In this document: one piece after another, positions 46,524 to 53,871 of the stretch | Layout: every line of letters begins with the position of its first letter | Position numbering within the stretch: the stretch's first letter is position 1 | Position numbers and translations under genes: made by a program | Notes under the pieces: model-generated | Told to the model about the DNA's origin: nothing | Seen by the model: only the letters and a program-made list of their open reading frames with translations | The model's database searches: none | Source of the DNA: an uncultured Bacteroidales bacterium | GTDB taxonomy: Bacteria > Bacteroidota > Bacteroidia > Bacteroidales > FEN-979 | NCBI GenBank assembly: GCA_903875045.1 | Contig: CAIQUS010000012.1 | Span: 1 to 64,000 of the forward strand | Direction: 5' to 3' | DNA: 64,000 nt

Positions 46524-48380
46524 TTAATATTTACCGGCCCTGCGCAAAGCTTCAAGATAATATACCATTGGATACATCCTTTCTGAATACCATAGCGAAG
46601 CAAAATATAAACCGATCGGTTTCGCGGGAAGACCCTTCTCCTGAAATTCATGATCAAGCCAGGCAAATCCATCTTTACACCTGTCAGGAGAGGTGACTAT
46701 CAATGCACTGAGAGCCAGTGCAGTCTCTTCCATACTGCCCTGAACACCTCTGCCGGCCCCCCAGCTGCCATCTTCATTCTGCTCACCTGCCAGGAAACTC
46801 ACGGCGCAGGCCAGCATCGGTTCAATCCGACCATGGATGGGATTGTCATGGCTCATGCCGCCGATTGCATCCTGAAGATAAACTGCCACACGGGCGGTTC
46901 CGTAAACCGGATTGGTTTTATCACTGGTCATCTGGTTTCCAAACCACAATGGCAGCCATGAACCATCAACCCGTTGCTCCTTCTCCAGAAACCGGAGTGC
47001 CCGGCTAATGCCTCTATTCAATTTTTTAAATTCACTATCCTTTAATTGAGCTCCGTACCTGACGATTGTTTTGATCCATGCTAGCAATGTATGGCCGGTA
47101 AGGTCGGCGCAACTCTGATCGAATGGCAGACGACCCCAGCCTTTGCAAAACGTTGGAATCCCGCCATCACGATTCTGAAGTCCGGCAAGCCATCTGCACC
47201 CGTTCATGATTGCCGGCTTAACTGCCGGATCTTCCTGCTCCAGTTCAAGCAATGCCAGAATAGCACCCGCCGTATCATCTGCATCGGGTACCGAACCCGA
47301 AAAAGAGCTCCAACCCCACCCTCCCGGACTGGCATTGTTGAACTGGTGCGGTAACTGATACTGAAGGTTGAGCAGATGTGAACGTAACCGGACTCTTTGG
47401 TCAATCGGCAGAAATTCAGAAAGATGTCTTCCCATTGCTTTTATACCCAAAGTTGTCACCCAGGTGGACAAGTCGGTATCGATTGGCCAGCTTCCATCGG
47501 GCCGCTGAAGTTTTTTTATAAACATGATGCCCCGGATGACAACCTGGTTGTCACTGAAACCAGATTTGATCAGGCACATCGATACAAAAGCCGTTAAAGG
47601 CACAGCTTCGAGAAATCCGCCACTTTCGGGCATCATCCTCCCGAGTTTGCTTAACGCCGGTTTGATCGCCTTTTCCCTTGTAAACGAAGTGAGCGGATCA
47701 GGGCGGCTTTTATGTTTAAACAGATAGATCCCAACAGCCACAAGAGCAGGTATTGCATAACTCACAACCTGAAGATTAAAAAACCTGTACAGGGAAAACG
47801 GAAGCAATGCTAATTCGTAAGGCAGCCGGGGAATGAGTTCAAGTGCCTTGGCATCCAACACCTTGCAGATTACAAGCATCGAAAGGATGGGTACCGAAAA
47901 AGTATAATCTTTTCCATAATAACCAAGGATGGATGCTACCATTGCATCCGATTGAATCTCAACACCCTCACGGACGAGATATTGCTCCATTCCGCAGATG
48001 ATGTTGGAAAAATCAGTCATACAGACAACGTCAGATCCAGCCGCTACGGAATGTCTTCTTTTGTCATACAAATCAGCAAATTCTCTGGCACAAAACCGGA
48101 AGGCCGCATAACAGAGTAACGTTGTACTGACATTACTGAGACTATCCGGCGAATCGCCAAATCCTCCATCTGCATTGATGGTATCTGTAAGCCAGGATAA
48201 TCCTCTGACAATCCCGGGTTGTAATTGTTGCGGATCACCCAGTTTGAGTGCAACAATGGAAACAGCAGTTGCAAGCGCACTTGAAGAAAGTTCTCCCGAC
48301 CAGAATCCTTCATCATTCAATTCTGAGGTGAGTTTTCTTGCAAGTAGCTCAAACCTGTCTGTATAATTAACTAAGTCCAT
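46524..48380 (-). CDS. Squalene-hopene-cyclase-like class II terpene cyclase
   Basis: A 618-residue protein. The catalytic acid motif DXDD is intact (D366-A-D-D369, in SVPDADDTA), preceded by GGWGWSSF as in squalene-hopene cyclases. QW-type repeats occur at about 291 (LQRPDGSWPI), 401 (LQNRDGGIPT), 468 (EQRVDGSWLPLWFG) and 533 (EQNEDGSWG). Class II cyclases protonate a terminal double bond of a polyprenyl chain and build fused rings, usually membrane-associated. It is the last gene of a five-gene operon with a prenyl synthase and no squalene synthase, so squalene may not be the substrate; sesquarterpene cyclases that use longer chains are a precedent. Length is close to SHC (about 630). Confidence 0.85.
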   Translation of the reverse strand: MDLVNYTDRFELLARKLTSELNDEGFWSGELSSSALATAVSIVALKLGDPQQLQPGIVRGLSWLTDTINADGGFGDSPDSLSNVSTTLLCYAAFRFCAREFADLYDKRRHSVAAGSDVVCMTDFSNIICGMEQYLVREGVEIQSDAMVASILGYYGKDYTFSVPILSMLVICKVLDAKALELIPRLPYELALLPFSLYRFFNLQVVSYAIPALVAVGIYLFKHKSRPDPLTSFTREKAIKPALSKLGRMMPESGGFLEAVPLTAFVSMCLIKSGFSDNQVVIRGIMFIKKLQRPDGSWPIDTDLSTWVTTLGIKAMGRHLSEFLPIDQRVRLRSHLLNLQYQLPHQFNNASPGGWGWSSFSGSVPDADDTAGAILALLELEQEDPAVKPAIMNGCRWLAGLQNRDGGIPTFCKGWGRLPFDQSCADLTGHTLLAWIKTIVRYGAQLKDSEFKKLNRGISRALRFLEKEQRVDGSWLPLWFGNQMTSDKTNPVYGTARVAVYLQDAIGGMSHDNPIHGRIEPMLACAVSFLAGEQNEDGSWGAGRGVQGSMEETALALSALIVTSPDRCKDGFAWLDHEFQEKGLPAKPIGLYFASLWYSERMYPMVYYLEALRRAGKY

Positions 48381-48421
48381 TCAAAACAATATCGTAAATG
48401 TAATACTTATTAATCAGCATT

Positions 48422-49339
48422 TTATTTTGAAGGCCGTTTGATCGCCCCCAACGCCAGCAACCCGTAAAATGTATATTCCACATCAACTTCCGTATCCTGC
48501 AAAGCAGCCCTGAACCCTCCCTGGTAATATAACCCATTGATAAAGGTCATACAGTCAGGCCGGATAAACCGCAGGTCATATCCCTTTAGTTGTAAAGCGA
48601 AAAGTGCCACTGAGGTTGATAATAAATCTGGTCCGGGCGTATCTGAAAACGCTGCAAAACCGCCATTTTCCCGATAATATGTCATAATAGGCTCTGCATC
48701 TGCCTGGGCCAATCCCGATTTTATAAAATCCAGAATCCCTTGTGCAGCTACAACCGGGCATGGCTTGCCAATTCCGGTTACACCCTTTCCAACAGATTTC
48801 AATTCACGCAACACACTGGCAAAATCACGGAGATACATCAGCGACAGGATTACAAGGAACCGTTGATATCCATTCTCCTGCGTGGCACTTTTTCCTGTTA
48901 AATTTCTGATTTTTTTCACAAACCGCCCCGTTTCCGGATCACCGGGGAAGAGTGAAGCATGAAGAATTGCCAGGCAAAACAAGTCTGTTCCCTCATGATT
49001 TCGTTGCCTTACAATCGTTTTCACATAGGTTTTCAACCTGTTTAAAACGATTTCCATATCAAACGCCTCCGCCAGAAAAAAACCAAACAATGTGTAATAG
49101 AGATCGCATTTCCCGCCACGGTCAGGGAATCCGCCCTCCAAAGTTTGCTGTGAAAAAAGCCATGCGCGACATTCTCTCCGGGTGACATCATCGATCAATG
49201 CCACTCCCCTTTTGAGTACGTTGCCAATCGAATCAGCATCGCGAAGCTTCAGTAGCCGGCTACCTTTCTTCCACCATGAAAATAAATTTTGTGGCAAAAG
49301 ATTAAATATACTTGTCGAAAATTTTTCCAAGAATCTCAT
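48422..49339 (-). CDS. Half-size prenyltransferase/squalene-oxidase-repeat protein
   Basis: A 305-residue alpha-barrel-like repeat protein. Repeats read GGFPDRGGKCDLYYT (about 95), GGFAAFSDTPGPDLLSTS (about 226) and GGFRAALQDTEVDVEYTFY (about 276), the pattern shared by prenyltransferase beta subunits and terpene cyclases. No DXDD is present, and the histidine zinc ligand expected in the last repeat of protein prenyltransferases is replaced (DVEYT). It may be a non-catalytic or differently catalytic partner of the neighbouring full cyclase. Its ATG overlaps the end of the prenyl synthase gene by 38 bases, so the two are coupled. Function unassigned. Confidence 0.75.
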   Translation of the reverse strand: MRFLEKFSTSIFNLLPQNLFSWWKKGSRLLKLRDADSIGNVLKRGVALIDDVTRRECRAWLFSQQTLEGGFPDRGGKCDLYYTLFGFFLAEAFDMEIVLNRLKTYVKTIVRQRNHEGTDLFCLAILHASLFPGDPETGRFVKKIRNLTGKSATQENGYQRFLVILSLMYLRDFASVLRELKSVGKGVTGIGKPCPVVAAQGILDFIKSGLAQADAEPIMTYYRENGGFAAFSDTPGPDLLSTSVALFALQLKGYDLRFIRPDCMTFINGLYYQGGFRAALQDTEVDVEYTFYGLLALGAIKRPSK

Positions 49340-50894
49340 GAAGCGCCAGTTTTAATCCCATATTTTCGAGATTTTCGAGATTTTCCTTTGCCCGGTCAAG
49401 ATGATCCTTCAGCAATCCGGCGCAATGGTCATTCGTTTTGTTGGTATCGAGATAATGATAGATCAGGCTGAAATCACCGGCCAAAAATGCCTGCTCAACA
49501 ATGGCTCGCTCTTGATTTGGAAGGTTTTCCAACAGCATGGCAAGCATCACTGAAGGTTTTCTAAACCGGATGTCACCCTGCTGCCCTTTATAATCTTCAA
49601 GGTCATCCATGATTTGATATGCAATCCCCGTGAAATGGCTGAAACGGCCTAACCGATCAAGGGTTTCCGGACTGGCATCACCGATGATCCCGCCCAGCAG
49701 TAATGCAACCCTGAAGGCTGAGGCTGTTTTGTTTTCAAAAATATGCAGGATTTCAGGCATGGACAATATCTTTCTGCCTGCAGTTGCCAGCAATTCGGCT
49801 CCCTGGCCCAGTGTCATGGCACGGTGTCCGGATGCGATAACGCGGATGCATTCGCCGATAATGGCAGGAGGCAATCTGCTTTCGGCAATAAGCCTGTATC
49901 CCTCTCCAATAAGTAAATCCCCGGCATTGATAGCCACAGGGATGCCATATTGTGCATGAATGGTTTGCTTGCCATACCTTTTGGGATCATCGTCTTCAAT
50001 ATCATCATGAATAAGCGATGCCTTGTGAAAGCATTCCACTGATAACGCCAGCCGGCTCAGGATTGCCGGATCGGGTTCCCTGCAAAACGCCTCGTATGTT
50101 AAAGTAGCAATAAATGGCCTGATGCGCTGACCACCTGCCAACAGTGAATCGATTACAATTTTAAGGGTCTCATCCCGCTCAGGTGCGAGAAGCCGGTGTA
50201 GTTGCTCCTCGCCGAAGAGTGATGCGGTCTGGTTCCGGATGTGGTTCAGATTCAGCAACCTGACAGATGGATCCTCCTGAAAACGGTAGAGCTCCTGCCT
50301 GATCAGCGACAGATCGGCCCGGGTATCTTTGCATCCGCAGGTAAGCAGGGGGATTCCAATGCCCGGTACGGCGAATTTGCTTACCGACCGGAACATCTTT
50401 TGCAAAACATCCATGCATCCGACCCCTATTACAGCATCCACCTTCCCGCTTTCGATCAAACGGGTCGTTATGGTGGTCCCCTCTGTCACAAGTGCCACAT
50501 AGCCCAGGTTTTCTGCCTCGTGAACGATTTCAGGGATGGAGCAACTGCCACAATCGTTGCATAGCAATCCGATATTATCCAGGTCGGCCTTACAGGAATG
50601 GCTGTTCTTAAGGCACTGCGGCAACAGCAGGATCCTCCGGTGAAAAGGAACCGTTTCCACAACTCTTCTCCACACGGCATTTCCGCAACAGAGCATGATG
50701 AAACCCAGATTGGCTTGTTCCCACTTATTTTCATGCATCAACACAGAGGAGAATTTCGAGAGTTCATCCATGGTAACCGGTGGCCATACAGGATGGTTTG
50801 TGAAATAGTCATCGATCTTTTGGCGTATGTGGTTCCGAAAGTCGATTGCCTCAGGAATCTGCAACGATATGGTTTGTTCTAAAATAGTCATCAT
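49302..50894 (-). CDS. DUF116 - trans-polyprenyl diphosphate synthase fusion
   Basis: About 530 residues from ATG 50894 (a longer frame begins at TTG 50933). Residues about 50-210 are a cysteine-rich DUF116-like domain (LLLPQCLKN, CKADLDNIGLLCNDCGSC, IGVGCMD, TCGCKD; Cys94, 101, 112, 115, 118, 160, 186 and 188 counted from the chosen start). Residues about 230-530 are a trans-isoprenyl synthase: GGQRIRP, first Asp-rich motif HDDIEDDD (296-303), second DDLEDYKG (430-437), GQGAELL. Ala sits five residues before the first Asp, which in this family allows chains of C20 or longer. The fusion ties a probable metal/radical-linked domain to chain synthesis. It is the third gene of the operon. Confidence 0.87.
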   Translation of the reverse strand: MMTILEQTISLQIPEAIDFRNHIRQKIDDYFTNHPVWPPVTMDELSKFSSVLMHENKWEQANLGFIMLCCGNAVWRRVVETVPFHRRILLLPQCLKNSHSCKADLDNIGLLCNDCGSCSIPEIVHEAENLGYVALVTEGTTITTRLIESGKVDAVIGVGCMDVLQKMFRSVSKFAVPGIGIPLLTCGCKDTRADLSLIRQELYRFQEDPSVRLLNLNHIRNQTASLFGEEQLHRLLAPERDETLKIVIDSLLAGGQRIRPFIATLTYEAFCREPDPAILSRLALSVECFHKASLIHDDIEDDDPKRYGKQTIHAQYGIPVAINAGDLLIGEGYRLIAESRLPPAIIGECIRVIASGHRAMTLGQGAELLATAGRKILSMPEILHIFENKTASAFRVALLLGGIIGDASPETLDRLGRFSHFTGIAYQIMDDLEDYKGQQGDIRFRKPSVMLAMLLENLPNQERAIVEQAFLAGDFSLIYHYLDTNKTNDHCAGLLKDHLDRAKENLENLENMGLKLALHEILGKIFDKYI

Positions 50895-50959
50895 GATCTG
50901 GTTTGATGTGTTCCCACCCAAGGGGTTGGGCAAAAGTCATTTTTGTTTCATTCCGGAAA

Positions 50960-52138
50960 TTATCCATACGCACCAAGGCCAAAAAAAGCCCTCCGCTTTG
51001 CAAACCGGTATAAGCCGTTCCGTTCCGGAATGACCGGGCATTCGCCGTGGCTGCAAACCTTGCAGCCTGCCTTCAACTGCTCGTCCATCCCAGGCCTACC
51101 CGAAGTATTCTGAGCATGGTGTTCTGCTGCAAGATCGGTTAGCCAGGCCGGGTTTTCCATCAGGATACATCCATTGGTCTTGTTGTGTATGCCAGCTTTC
51201 AGATTGCGAAGGAACGCTGATTTTTGATAGGTCGTTTTCAGATTTTCCTCACCAACCACTCCACATGAATATTGTATCACCGGGCAGGGCTCAATGTGCC
51301 CGTCAGGGTTGATATGATGACTGAGCCCTTCAGCAGCCGGGCAAAACGGACGACCATCGGCATCCCAATATGAATCGATGATGACCATGGGATACTTTGT
51401 CCTGCCTTCAACCAGGAATCTTCGGAGCCGCTCAATCTCATGGGCGGATAACGCCAGTTCATAACAAGGTTGTGCCCCAACAGGCCGGTAGATATAATAC
51501 CATAAATACACCACTCCCAGCCGGTGCAACATATCAACAAACGATTCAGAAAGCGCCATCTCGATGTTCGATTTACACACGCTGATAGCCACACCGGTGA
51601 TGAGTCCATGAGATACAGAGGTCTCAATGGCACGCAGTGTACGTTTGTAAACCCCTGATCCGCCTCTCCGGATGTCGGCCACTGGTTCATCGCCCTCGAA
51701 ACTGATCAGCGGGGTTACATTGGCACATTGACGAAGTTCTTCTGCCATCGCATCGTTCAACAGCATGCCATTGGTGAAGAGTTGAAAATACGACCGCGGA
51801 TGTGCTTTGAAAACGGAGGTCAGTTTTGGATATAAAAGTGGTTCACCTCCCAGGATCCCAAAAAACCAGGAGCCATTTTCATTGCTGTCGCGGATGATGC
51901 GGTCGACCTTTTGCAATTCAAGTTCCCTGATCCCGTCTGTTTGCGACACCCAGCATCCCTGACAGGTCAGGTTGCATTTGTTGGTTACAGAAATAAACTG
52001 AAAAGCGGGAAATGCAGAACCCTTCTTCCTCTCCCGATCAAACCGGGTGAAAGTTCTGGCTCCCTTCCAAACGAGGTTTACCAGAAAAACTCTGATACAT
52101 TTCAGGTCGGCACGTAAAATATTTCTTAAAATAGACAT
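50960..52138 (-). CDS. Radical SAM enzyme with SPASM-like C-terminus
   Basis: A 392-residue protein. The radical SAM cluster motif is CNLTCQGC (Cys55, 59, 62), followed by GGEPLLYP and a TIM-barrel pattern (LFTNGMLL, ISFEGDEP, VYKRTLRAIE). The C-terminal half has further cysteines: HINPDGHIEPCPVIQYSC and CKVCSHGECPV, like SPASM or twitch auxiliary Fe-S sites. These enzymes use SAM and a reduced cluster for radical modification of substrates. It is not a clear HpnH: that protein's surrounding motif and hpn neighbours are absent. It lies between the ferredoxin (16 bases) and the prenyl synthase (65 bases). The substrate may be a prenyl chain or a cyclised terpene, by context. Confidence 0.88.
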   Translation of the reverse strand: MSILRNILRADLKCIRVFLVNLVWKGARTFTRFDRERKKGSAFPAFQFISVTNKCNLTCQGCWVSQTDGIRELELQKVDRIIRDSNENGSWFFGILGGEPLLYPKLTSVFKAHPRSYFQLFTNGMLLNDAMAEELRQCANVTPLISFEGDEPVADIRRGGSGVYKRTLRAIETSVSHGLITGVAISVCKSNIEMALSESFVDMLHRLGVVYLWYYIYRPVGAQPCYELALSAHEIERLRRFLVEGRTKYPMVIIDSYWDADGRPFCPAAEGLSHHINPDGHIEPCPVIQYSCGVVGEENLKTTYQKSAFLRNLKAGIHNKTNGCILMENPAWLTDLAAEHHAQNTSGRPGMDEQLKAGCKVCSHGECPVIPERNGLYRFAKRRAFFGLGAYG

Positions 52139-52154
52139 GTTGTCGTTTCGAAAT

Positions 52155-52934
52155 TTATTTGTTCATAACATTTTTCAGTGCCTCATCACGTTCCCGGATG
52201 GCCTGCTCCATCTCATCCTCTCGGATGACCAGGCGCCGTTTCAGTTTCCGTTGTTCGAGCGCCTGGTAAATATCACTTCCGAGAATTGCGTCTGTGTCTT
52301 GCTGCAACCGTTGCATTTCAGTTGTTTCATCCATGGATTCAGAACCTCCGATCGCCCCACCGGGAGCATACTTCGGAAAAATGATGGCCACCCGTGGGCA
52401 AATGCGGGCACAGGCCGGACAATTATTTTTACAGTTCTTAGGATTGACCACAGAAACTTTACCCTCCGTTTTCTGATAAACACCAAAAAGGCAGAAATCT
52501 GAACACTGCCCGCAGGAATTGCAACGGATTTCATCAATCACCGGATACCATGCCGGCCAGGATGGGTCGCTGACTATTTCTCTCGCTTGAACAGTGTCGG
52601 GTCCGGGAAGCCTGTAATTCTGAAGAACAGTCATGAGGTCATCAGGGTTCTCCTCCACCAGGTTAAAAAACCGGACATGATCCGTTTCGCAAATGCCGGC
52701 CTTGTTCAGCAGGAACCTGACTGCACGCGGATGACACGCAATCAGCAACACTTTTACCGGATGATTGATAAGTCCGGCCAATTCATCCGGGTTCATGGCG
52801 CTGACACCACAAAGGTCGGTGAGGGTTATCTGACGAATATCATCCGTATGATTCAGTCGTGTGGCGGTTTTGATCCACGCTGAATTATCTTTTTTTATTT
52901 GGCAATTGCAGAAGAGAACAATATTTTCAGACAT
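52155..52934 (-). CDS. Dicluster [4Fe-4S] ferredoxin-domain protein
   Basis: A 259-residue protein. Two CxxCxxCxxxC-type motifs lie at Cys138-141-144-148 (RCNSCGQCSDFC) and Cys168-172-175-179 (NCKNNCPACARIC), fit for two [4Fe-4S] clusters. The N-terminal third (VKVLLIACHPRAVRFLL) recalls the MvhD/HdrA-associated small iron-sulfur domain, not proven. The charged tail (about 205-259) is coiled-coil-like. As first gene of the operon it is the likely electron donor for the radical SAM enzyme. Confidence 0.82.
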   Translation of the reverse strand: MSENIVLFCNCQIKKDNSAWIKTATRLNHTDDIRQITLTDLCGVSAMNPDELAGLINHPVKVLLIACHPRAVRFLLNKAGICETDHVRFFNLVEENPDDLMTVLQNYRLPGPDTVQAREIVSDPSWPAWYPVIDEIRCNSCGQCSDFCLFGVYQKTEGKVSVVNPKNCKNNCPACARICPRVAIIFPKYAPGGAIGGSESMDETTEMQRLQQDTDAILGSDIYQALEQRKLKRRLVIREDEMEQAIRERDEALKNVMNK

Positions 52935-52940
52935 TTATAA

Positions 52941-52948
52941 CAAAATTA
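52941..52948 (-). promoter_or_regulatory. -7 box TAATTTTG for the terpenoid operon
   Basis: Minus-strand TAnnTTTG match ending 6 bases before the ferredoxin ATG, so the transcript would have almost no leader. Confidence 0.45.
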
Positions 52949-53082
52949 ACTGGTCGATTTCCGCGCAAACGTATCAAAAATTCCTGATTTTCATGCTATG
53001 AAAATACAACCATCTGAAAACGTGAATAAATAAATTACCTGATATCTGGTAAAAAAACGATGAACCTGAATAACAGAGGGAT

Positions 53083-53094: not shown

Positions 53095-53871
53095 ATGATG
53101 CTTTATCTCAAGGCTATATTGTTAAAAGCTTTTTTCGCTGTGTGGATATTGTTCCTGCTGCAATCCAATGCATACACCCAGTTCCCTGCCCCCGAAATGG
53201 TTTTTGTGCAGGGGGGCATCTTTAAAATGGGGTCAAAAGCGGGAGGGATTGATGAACGGCCGATTCACGATGTGATGATCGATGATTTTTATATTGGCAA
53301 ATATGAAGTACCCCAGCAGCAATGGCGAGAAATCATGGTCCAGGATACCAATAAATGCTATTTCGCCGGGTGCGATAGTTGTCCGGTTGAACGGGTGAGT
53401 TGGTACAATGCCATGGAGTTTATTGAAAAGCTAAATGAGAAAACAAAGTTAAACTACCGTCTTCCCACGGAAGCGGAATGGGAATATGCAGCAAAGGGAG
53501 GTGCTTTGTCGAAGGGTTATAAATACAGCGGGAGCAATGCAGATGTTTCAGTTGCATGGAAAGTCGGGGTTTCAAATGGGATGACCCATCCTGTTGGTCG
53601 AAAAAAACCGAATGAACTGGGAGTTTATGACATGACTGGAAATGTATTTGAATGGTGTGCCGACTGGTATTCCCCGACATGGTACCAGGTATCACCAAAA
53701 AGGAATCCGGTTGGTCCTGGCCTTGGTAGTTTTCGGGTAATCCGGGGAGGAAGCTGGTTTTATGACCAGGCAGGCCTCCGGGTCTCAGATCGGGAGAGTG
53801 CCAATCCAACTTTCAGATATGGATATGTAGGATTCCGGTTATGCCGCCCGGCAGATGGAGGAAAACAATAA
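53095..53871 (+). CDS. SUMF1-like (formylglycine-generating-enzyme fold) secreted protein
   Basis: A 258-residue protein with a signal peptide (1 to about 30). The fold motifs of the SUMF1 family are present: FVQGGIFKMGS, YEVPQQQWREIM, YRLPTEAEWEYAA, YDMTGNVFEWC, RVIRGGSWFYD and YGYVGFRLC. The two active-site cysteines of true formylglycine-generating enzyme are missing: the expected cysteine after RGGS is not present. It is therefore probably not a sulfatase activator. Similar proteins in Bacteroidota are linked to gliding or surface assembly; no specific role can be assigned. Its start lies 4 bases after a -7 box. Confidence 0.82.
   Translation: MMLYLKAILLKAFFAVWILFLLQSNAYTQFPAPEMVFVQGGIFKMGSKAGGIDERPIHDVMIDDFYIGKYEVPQQQWREIMVQDTNKCYFAGCDSCPVERVSWYNAMEFIEKLNEKTKLNYRLPTEAEWEYAAKGGALSKGYKYSGSNADVSVAWKVGVSNGMTHPVGRKKPNELGVYDMTGNVFEWCADWYSPTWYQVSPKRNPVGPGLGSFRVIRGGSWFYDQAGLRVSDRESANPTFRYGYVGFRLCRPADGGKQ

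Follow-up and report, generated by a model that had tools for sequence, protein, structure and literature searches.

A conserved five-gene operon of Bacteroidales and other bacteria that may direct squalene-independent synthesis of a cyclic terpenoid lipid

What is made by an operon that places radical S-adenosylmethionine (SAM) chemistry, polyprenyl chain synthesis and class II terpene cyclisation side by side on one strand? The question is raised by five adjoining genes in a 64,000-nucleotide stretch of DNA (the window: positions 1 to 64,000 of contig CAIQUS010000012.1, assembly GCA_903875045.1) from an uncultured Bacteroidales bacterium of the lineage FEN-979, which encode an iron-sulfur protein of the ferredoxin type, a radical SAM enzyme, a fusion of a DUF116 domain to a polyprenyl diphosphate synthase, a half-size cyclase-like protein and a class II cyclase. 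The five genes are a conserved, co-inherited unit across phyla, and they probably specify a pathway without squalene, which would take a long polyprenyl diphosphate through class II cyclisation and modification by the radical SAM enzyme. The features of the operon are as follows.

46524..48380, minus strand: cyc, 618-residue class II (DXDD) terpene cyclase of the squalene-hopene cyclase superfamily
47274..47285, minus strand: catalytic acid motif DADD, residues 366-369 of cyc
48422..49339, minus strand: half, 305-residue single alpha/alpha toroid with DLLS at the DXDD position (PF00432, AlphaFold2)
49302..50894 from ATG, minus strand: DUF116-polyprenyl diphosphate synthase fusion; an alternative TTG at 50933 would give 543 residues
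49497..50168, minus strand: trans-polyprenyl diphosphate synthase domain of the fusion (PF00348)
49986..50006, minus strand: first Asp-rich motif DDIEDDD, with HKASLIH just before it (Ala at -5)
50295..50729, minus strand: DUF116 domain of the fusion (PF01976), seven invariant Cys, predicted Rossmann-like fold
50960..52138, minus strand: rsam, 392-residue radical SAM enzyme with CX3CX2C at residues 55-62 (PF04055)
51953..51976, minus strand: radical SAM cluster motif CNLTCQGC (in translation)
52155..52934, minus strand: fd, 259-residue iron-sulfur protein with an N-terminal CxC...C...C region and two 4Fe-4S sites
52941..52948, minus strand: -7 box match TAATTTTG, noted earlier, 6 bases from ATG
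52966..52973, minus strand: second, better placed -7 box match TACGTTTG, 31 bases from ATG

Conservation of the five genes

In a broad sample of 395 genomes of the phylum, queried with the first 240 residues of the fusion, the DUF116 part matched a single genome, that of the host itself, and the operon is therefore rare in such a sample. A scan of 84,980 species, each represented by one genome, with an alignment of the DUF116 part yielded 92 relatives that were confirmed, and 80 loci were retained from these; together with the window they make up a set of 81 loci, from which the gene profiles were built. All five genes are found in the same order and on the same strand in 53 of the 81 loci (with one gene split into pieces in L054, L068 and L075). 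According to the record titles, the complete loci belong to several Bacteroidales families, including the cultured Parabacteroides, Mangrovibacterium and Carboxylicivirga, and outside this order to Verrucomicrobia (L087, L091), Kiritimatiellae (L053) and Armatimonadetes (L044); two more are titled Lentisphaerales (L083) and Victivallales (L077). The fusion alone was seen in the Planctomycetota loci L062 and L089. The remaining 28 loci are incomplete, and when 14 genomes without an adjacent cyclase gene were probed for a cyclase elsewhere, an ortholog scoring 670-850 bits was found in 11 of them.

The distribution of the genes was also analyzed in 100 relatives of the host. The full-length fusion is present in seven of them (G000, G006, G010, G011, G022, G058 and G065), and the cyclase profile matches exactly these seven carriers, while the ordinary synthase part was matched in 98 of the relatives. 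The radical SAM profile (E up to 1e-40) matches 11 relatives, the seven carriers at 394-646 bits and the others at 216 bits or less, and the half protein was found in six of the seven carriers. When pairwise amino-acid distances of the five proteins were compared in 48 loci, the correlations ranged from 0.918 to 0.962, the permutation maximum being 0.264 (500 permutations per protein pair). The co-conservation in relatives that the preliminary description of this DNA had singled out for checking is thus found, both as an order kept in 53 loci across phyla and as the same seven carriers among 100 relatives. Near the paralogous radical SAM genes of G023, G056, G006 and G072, no second terpenoid context was evident in the first 150 residues of the neighbours.

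In trees of the radical SAM protein, the window falls in a supported clade of 13 rows (first tree) or 12 rows (second tree), which stands apart from the Parabacteroides-Marinilabiliaceae clade. The second tree leaves out the probably mistitled L030 and L074 and the long branches L090 and L095. In it Bacteroidota form one side of a branch (99/95), and the Verrucomicrobiota and Lentisphaerota titles are intermixed, with four changes each. Transfer between Bacteroidota and other phyla was considered, since the first tree needed three changes, and was not retained because no such transfer is visible in the second tree, where Bacteroidota stand together on one side. L030, titled Alphaproteobacteria, holds the genes of contig C246 of G006, a genome of the window's genus, and groups with Bacteroidales, so its title is probably wrong. 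The radical SAM protein of L074, titled Eubacteriales, is nearly identical to that of the Parabacteroides bin L073 (end branches about 0.005), and this title likely reflects a binning or labelling error.

The five open reading frames of the window are separated by intergenic gaps of 16, 65, -38 and 41 bases when the ATG start is used for the fusion. The preliminary description had given five genes on one strand with these gaps, and in this respect the coordinates agree and Pfam backs the gene names; it had also placed a single -7 box in front of the operon, which has to be corrected, as two TAnnTTTG boxes (TAATTTTG and TACGTTTG) lie within the 160 bases in front of it. Because it lies 31 bases from the ATG, as against 6 bases for the other, TACGTTTG is the likelier promoter. 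The longest open reading frame of the fusion (49302-50933) opens with TTG, the ATG being codon 14, and the ATG at 50894 is favoured as the start because relatives begin at the homologous Met. The divergent neighbour of the operon (53095-53871) is an FGE-sulfatase gene (formylglycine-generating-enzyme-like).

The cyclase, the synthase fusion and their partners

The cyclase matches the Pfam models SQHop_cyclase_C (99.8 bits, cut-off 26.1) and SQHop_cyclase_N (44.5 bits, cut-off 26.2). Its residues D366, D368, D369 and H430 are kept in 52 of 52 members and Tyr 493 in at least 90% of them, and in a profile alignment counted by hand H430 and Y493 stand opposite H451 and Y495 of the squalene-hopene cyclase of A. 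acidocaldarius, so the proton-donor machinery looks intact. With the curated squalene-hopene cyclase model TIGR01507, the window protein scores 85.2 bits and the P. distasonis copy 82.5 bits, compared with a cut-off of 431.1. The protein is a member of the class II (DXDD) family by its domains and acid motif and, judged by this model, not a squalene-hopene cyclase. A squalene/phytoene synthase gene (PF00494) was not matched in the host genome or in 12 of 17 other carriers, that is, in 13 of 18, by a search whose control gave a match in 7 of the 14 known genomes. The available part of PMC13396157 describes a rat gut metaproteome, rich in Parabacteroides, in which COG1657 (terpene cyclase SqhC) shifts; the peptides may or may not stem from the cyclase family of the operon.

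The fusion carries both DUF116 (PF01976, 106.4 bits, cut-off 25) and polyprenyl_synt (PF00348, 136.3 bits, cut-off 27) on one chain. The synthase part of the window protein has the Asp-rich motifs DDIEDDD and DDLED (in 13 of 72 synthases the second one is not matched by the search pattern), and in 72 of 72 synthases an Ala stands five residues before the first Asp motif. Its best solved relative by sequence, the P. horikoshii geranylgeranyl diphosphate synthase 1wy0, has a Tyr at that position. In the accessible part of PMC4244643, a change at the -5 residue let a Sulfolobus enzyme yield C30-C50 products, and an excerpt of PMC7261888 gives C25 for a Met to Ala change at -5 in a cyanobacterial CrtE. 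Together with these lengthening changes, the Ala at -5 and the motifs suggest that the product of the synthase would be a polyprenyl chain longer than C20.

The DUF116 domain is fused to the synthase in all 72 rows used and has seven invariant Cys. Its structure model is Rossmann-like and confident, with a predicted local distance difference test score (pLDDT) of 90.1. An identification by fold was attempted and given up, since no significant match was obtained by any route: Foldseek returned 0 matches with E up to 0.001 (the top one being a protochlorophyllide reductase chain, E 0.048), the best VIA match, type II dehydroquinase at Z 8.0, may be merely a common arrangement, and the sequence profile gave 0 hits at E up to 1. 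DUF116 is also present in Methanocaldococcus jannaschii and Methanosarcina acetivorans. A comparative study of 2015, as far as its available text goes (PMC5898192), proposed DUF116 as an electron-transfer domain with a predicted flavodoxin-like fold, in agreement with the Rossmann-like model here, found it in Methanomicrobia next to genes for sulfite or nitrite reductases, and mentioned in one sentence its fusion to polyprenyl synthetase, for example in Pirellula staleyi Psta_0175. By that description, Psta_0175 has the same domain fusion as the window protein, and in the same text the fusion is mentioned without cyclase, radical SAM enzyme, ferredoxin or operon.

The radical SAM enzyme matches PF04055 at 61.6 bits (cut-off 29.5). 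Residues C55, C59 and C62, together with C266, C285 and C324, are kept in 41 of 41 members and C188 in 95%. Its C terminus is of a truncated SPASM/twitch-like type (C266-X13-G-X4-C285 plus C324); the full SPASM motif has seven Cys, which rsam does not show, and the window protein had no SPASM Pfam match at E up to 1. Among the matches listed, no NCBIfam family was over its cut-off. The HpnH model TIGR03470 gave 53.8 bits for the window protein and 35.5 for the P. distasonis copy, compared with a cut-off of 225.05, and by this curated model the enzyme is not HpnH. HpnH is likewise a radical SAM protein adjoining a terpenoid cyclase and matches rsam weakly over the core domain; unlike HpnH, rsam has the truncated SPASM-like C terminus. 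For the ferredoxin, all Fer4 models fall below cut-off (best 24.6 versus 25.5), the two CxxCxxC sites are plain, and all 12 Cys are present in 51 of 51 aligned members.

The half protein matches Prenyltrans (PF00432) at 28.0 bits, compared with a cut-off of 26.5, and its AlphaFold2 model is a single alpha/alpha toroid (pLDDT 88.1). By VIA, the beta subunit of Rab geranylgeranyl transferase (3c72_B; Z 19.3, root-mean-square deviation 3.3, 246 residues aligned) and the half-size cyclase 8paj_B (Z 18.6) are effectively tied, and the top Foldseek match is 8pak_B (E 4.5e-04). The single toroid fold is thus common to the half protein, the protein geranylgeranyl transferase beta chain and the half-size class II cyclases. 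The DXDD position reads DLLS, and Y158, D238, D286 and E288 are invariant in 65 of 65 rows. The zinc ligands of protein prenyltransferases, which we take to be Asp, Cys and His, have no evident counterpart, as no Cys is kept in more than 80% and no His in more than 97% of the 65 rows, and a weak HMMER alignment puts a Leu and a Tyr at the Cys and His positions. Unlike the prenyltransferase beta chain, then, the half protein is without an invariant Cys or His and has the invariant acids D238, D286 and E288. With DLLS and no conserved zinc site it differs both from standard class II cyclases and from zinc prenyltransferases, and it would be a prenyl-binding toroid without the DXDD acid, either a lipid holder or a second, non-canonical cyclase.

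A redox module beside the operon

When neighbouring genes were clustered, PQQ-like beta-propellers were found anywhere in the locus in 40 of the 81 loci, an NHL-type cluster, which pools NHL propellers with Tat polyferredoxins, in 28, and NapH-like proteins in 22. The PQQ-like genes may lie before or after the operon. Directly after the cyclase gene the order is PQQ, NHL, Tat polyferredoxin, NapH and PQQ, and this downstream module is seen in many Tannerellaceae, Bacteroidaceae, Rikenellaceae, Marinilabiliaceae and Prolixibacteraceae loci. In L144 (Kiritimatiellia) and L143 (a Prevotellaceae bin) the cyclase gene lies apart from the early genes and the module still follows it, in L144 with an opposite-strand gene between the first propeller and the rest; the Prevotellaceae genome of L143 holds a second set, L154. 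In 12 stretches around such separated cyclases, the half gene adjoins in L143, L145 and L154 (in L154 synthase and radical SAM genes as well), the redox module recurs in L143, L144 and partly in L154, PQQ-like genes recur in L147 and L153, and the other stretches had no shared neighbour by eye.

All 7 carriers among the relatives have an NHL match, as do 26 of 27 further ones. Where the terpenoid genes occur, the module seems to accompany them, and it can also exist on its own: a perfect specificity of the module for the operon was ruled out by an NHL match in 37 of 93 relatives that lack the operon. NuoEF-like genes lie near the module in 8 of the 10 stretches read (typed by profile in L187 only), and its membrane protein, with a NapH/MauN match of 64.5 versus a cut-off of 213.05, is NapH/NosR-like, under the cut-off. 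The module resembles the NapGH/MauMN ferredoxin pair, as it likewise has a Tat polyferredoxin and a NapH-like protein, which come after the cyclase in many carriers; unlike that pair, it is joined to PQQ-like and NHL beta-propellers, falls below the NapH/MauN cut-off and is not adjacent to the operon in the window. In the host genome it corresponds to L187, an operon of PQQ-like propellers, an NHL propeller, a polyferredoxin, a NapH-like protein, a NuoEF-like fusion and, after this fusion, a GltD-like flavoprotein; this set is an unnamed electron-transfer system. L094, L099 and L105 make up a minor clade of Bacteroidota next to the large one, as its sister; their operons have no adjoining NHL or NapH genes within the locus, and their genomes do have an NHL match.

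A proposed pathway and its alternatives

From families and motifs we infer all the chemical steps and the purpose of the pathway, which would be devoted to a cyclic terpenoid lipid and do without squalene. The synthase domain of the fusion would condense an allylic diphosphate with isopentenyl diphosphate to an all-trans polyprenyl diphosphate longer than C20. The DXDD enzyme would then protonate the distal isoprene and cyclise the chain or a derivative of it by an acid mechanism as in squalene-hopene cyclase. The co-encoded iron-sulfur protein, and perhaps also the cysteine-rich DUF116 domain, would supply low-potential electrons to the radical SAM enzyme, which would form or cleave an unactivated bond, either in the chain or in its head, and the half protein may bind the lipid for another enzyme or act as a second, non-canonical cyclase. 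Many carriers would make the lipid next to a periplasmic redox module, and perhaps for its use; this module consists of beta-propellers, Tat polyferredoxin and a NapH-like membrane protein. As product one may think of a free lipid, of an intermediate borne on a diphosphate, or of a portion of a redox lipid that serves this module. The novel cyclic terpenoid that had been suggested at the outset gains from the co-conserved, non-hopanoid genes, and the sesquarterpene-like size suggested with it would be allowed by the Ala at -5. A bolder version sees in the product a new class of membrane lipids, that is, a squalene-independent polycyclic long-chain terpenoid, altered by radical chemistry, that would be a redox or anchoring cofactor of the NapH/polyferredoxin/beta-propeller module; the prenyl synthase would then have its iron-sulfur partner in DUF116. 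This version is tentative, and we lean against it.

Several observations weigh against the squalene-independent pathway or against parts of it. A full-length cyclase was not found in 3 of the 14 probed genomes (G505, G512 and G517), one of which has a distant cyclase match (88 bits) and two none, and the half protein was not found in the carrier G058, whose other genes are on separate contigs. A PF00494 gene is present in 5 of 18 carriers (G065, G494, G496, G504 and G500, the last barely over the cut-off), and squalene could thus serve as the substrate there. The best curated matches of the window radical SAM enzyme, GeoRSP (56.9), ScmF (54.9) and HpnH, are far under their cut-offs and the P. 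distasonis copy prefers NirJ2 (72.0 bits), and the substrate of the radical enzyme is a guess. As to the module, the host's copy lies on another contig than the operon (L187, G000:C57:30000-49500); unlinked NHL matches are weaker, at 91-232 bits in the 26 of 27 further carriers and 227 in the host's own genome, the linked copy of G065 scoring 556 bits; and the operon-less relatives with an NHL match count here as well. Pirellula staleyi, which has the fusion, is an aerobe, which suggests that the pathway is not necessarily restricted to anaerobes.

A redox-active or head-group-modified lipid, in which a cyclised prenyl chain is joined to a ring or a peptide, or coupled with it through radical chemistry, and acts as membrane electron carrier for the module, would account for the linkage of cyclase and module in many Bacteroidales and in the Kiritimatiellia locus L144, for the NHL matches in nearly all carriers, for the NapH/NosR-like membrane protein, under the cut-off as its match is, and for the NuoEF-like genes by the module. 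However, Pfam gave no match to a UbiA-type prenyltransferase or an aromatic-ring enzyme among the five operon genes, and the NHL matches in operon-less relatives indicate that the module is possible without the lipid, so we regard such a carrier as unlikely. A stand-in for squalene synthase is improbable too. Here DUF116 would serve as an iron-sulfur reductase, either coupling two polyprenyl chains or taking off their phosphates, and the substrate that reaches the cyclase would be a neutral hydrocarbon. This could be suggested by the fusion of DUF116 to the synthase in 72 rows, its seven invariant Cys, the lack of a PF00494 match in most carriers tested, the electron-transfer proposal and the sulfite/nitrite reductase neighbours in Methanomicrobia given in the available text of PMC5898192, and the very weak top match to protochlorophyllide reductase. 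Against it, no fold match was significant, and the DUF116 proteins of M. jannaschii and M. acetivorans occur in energy-conversion contexts in the same partial source, which argues that the general role of the domain is not prenyl coupling.

An ordinary hopanoid-like triterpenoid, with the cyclase acting on squalene made elsewhere and the radical SAM enzyme as an HpnH-like adenosyl transferase, is very unlikely. It would fit the superfamily of the cyclase, the place of HpnH as third-best curated match of the window enzyme and the PF00494 gene of five carriers, but both proteins stay far below the curated models (85.2 versus 431.1 and 53.8 versus 225.05), PF00494 was not matched in 13 of 18 carriers including the host, and a dedicated polyprenyl synthase is co-inherited. 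In G506, G510 and G515, 3 of the 14 probed genomes, moreover, the full ortholog is accompanied by another, distant cyclase-like match, which scores 73-97 bits and has a frame of 667-698 residues. Membership in hopanoid or carotenoid synthesis was rejected on the curated cut-offs and the lack of PF00494, which also answers in the negative whether the genes could be known hopanoid parts working on squalene, as the preliminary description had envisaged. Finally, that the radical SAM enzyme joins two lipid chains into a membrane-spanning lipid, like archaeal tetraether synthase (Tes), is hardly credible, since Tes (7tol), found among the solved relatives of the rsam profile at 30.2 bits, is outscored by peptide and nucleoside enzymes (SkfB, 78.2; cytosylglucuronate decarboxylase, 48.0), and its match is therefore generic.

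For the squalene-independent pathway, the closest known system by way of working would be the cyclisation of long prenyl chains by enzymes of the squalene-hopene cyclase type. The squalene-hopene cyclase of A. acidocaldarius (1gsz/2sqc) and the operon cyclase have in common the DXDD motif, the His, the Tyr and the domain family; unlike the former, the operon cyclase is co-inherited with a polyprenyl synthase, and squalene synthase was not found in most carriers tested. We know of no counterpart of the radical SAM enzyme, DUF116, the ferredoxin or the half-toroid in the Bacillus pathway to the C35 sesquarterpene, and no tetraprenyl-beta-curcumene synthase gene is among the operon's five. By the accessible text of PMC4191879, that pathway, through tetraprenyl-beta-curcumene, likewise relies on cyclisation of the squalene-hopene cyclase type of a long linear isoprenoid. 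No operon that combines cyclase and radical SAM genes was found in the open-access literature, judged mostly from titles and abstracts, and other papers or preprints may exist. The earlier remark that no described pathway with this exact gene set is known agrees with this; the DUF116-synthase fusion by itself was in print in 2015 (in the part seen of PMC5898192). Each enzyme belongs to a known superfamily, and the combination and its product appear to be undescribed.

Terpenoid lipids, among them hopanoids and sterols, regulate membranes and serve as biomarkers, and the class II cyclases of bacteria usually have squalene or C15-C20 diphosphates as substrates. Since the gene order is kept in distant bacteria, including gut species, the product is probably important. 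A co-inherited, multi-phylum pathway in culturable gut and marine Bacteroidales that combines a radical SAM step with a prenyl synthase fused to an orphan, cysteine-rich domain would point to an overlooked family of lipids; the operon offers a direct test of the roles of DUF116 and of the DXDD-less half-toroid, and lipids from gut and sediment samples that still lack an assignment may be accounted for by it.

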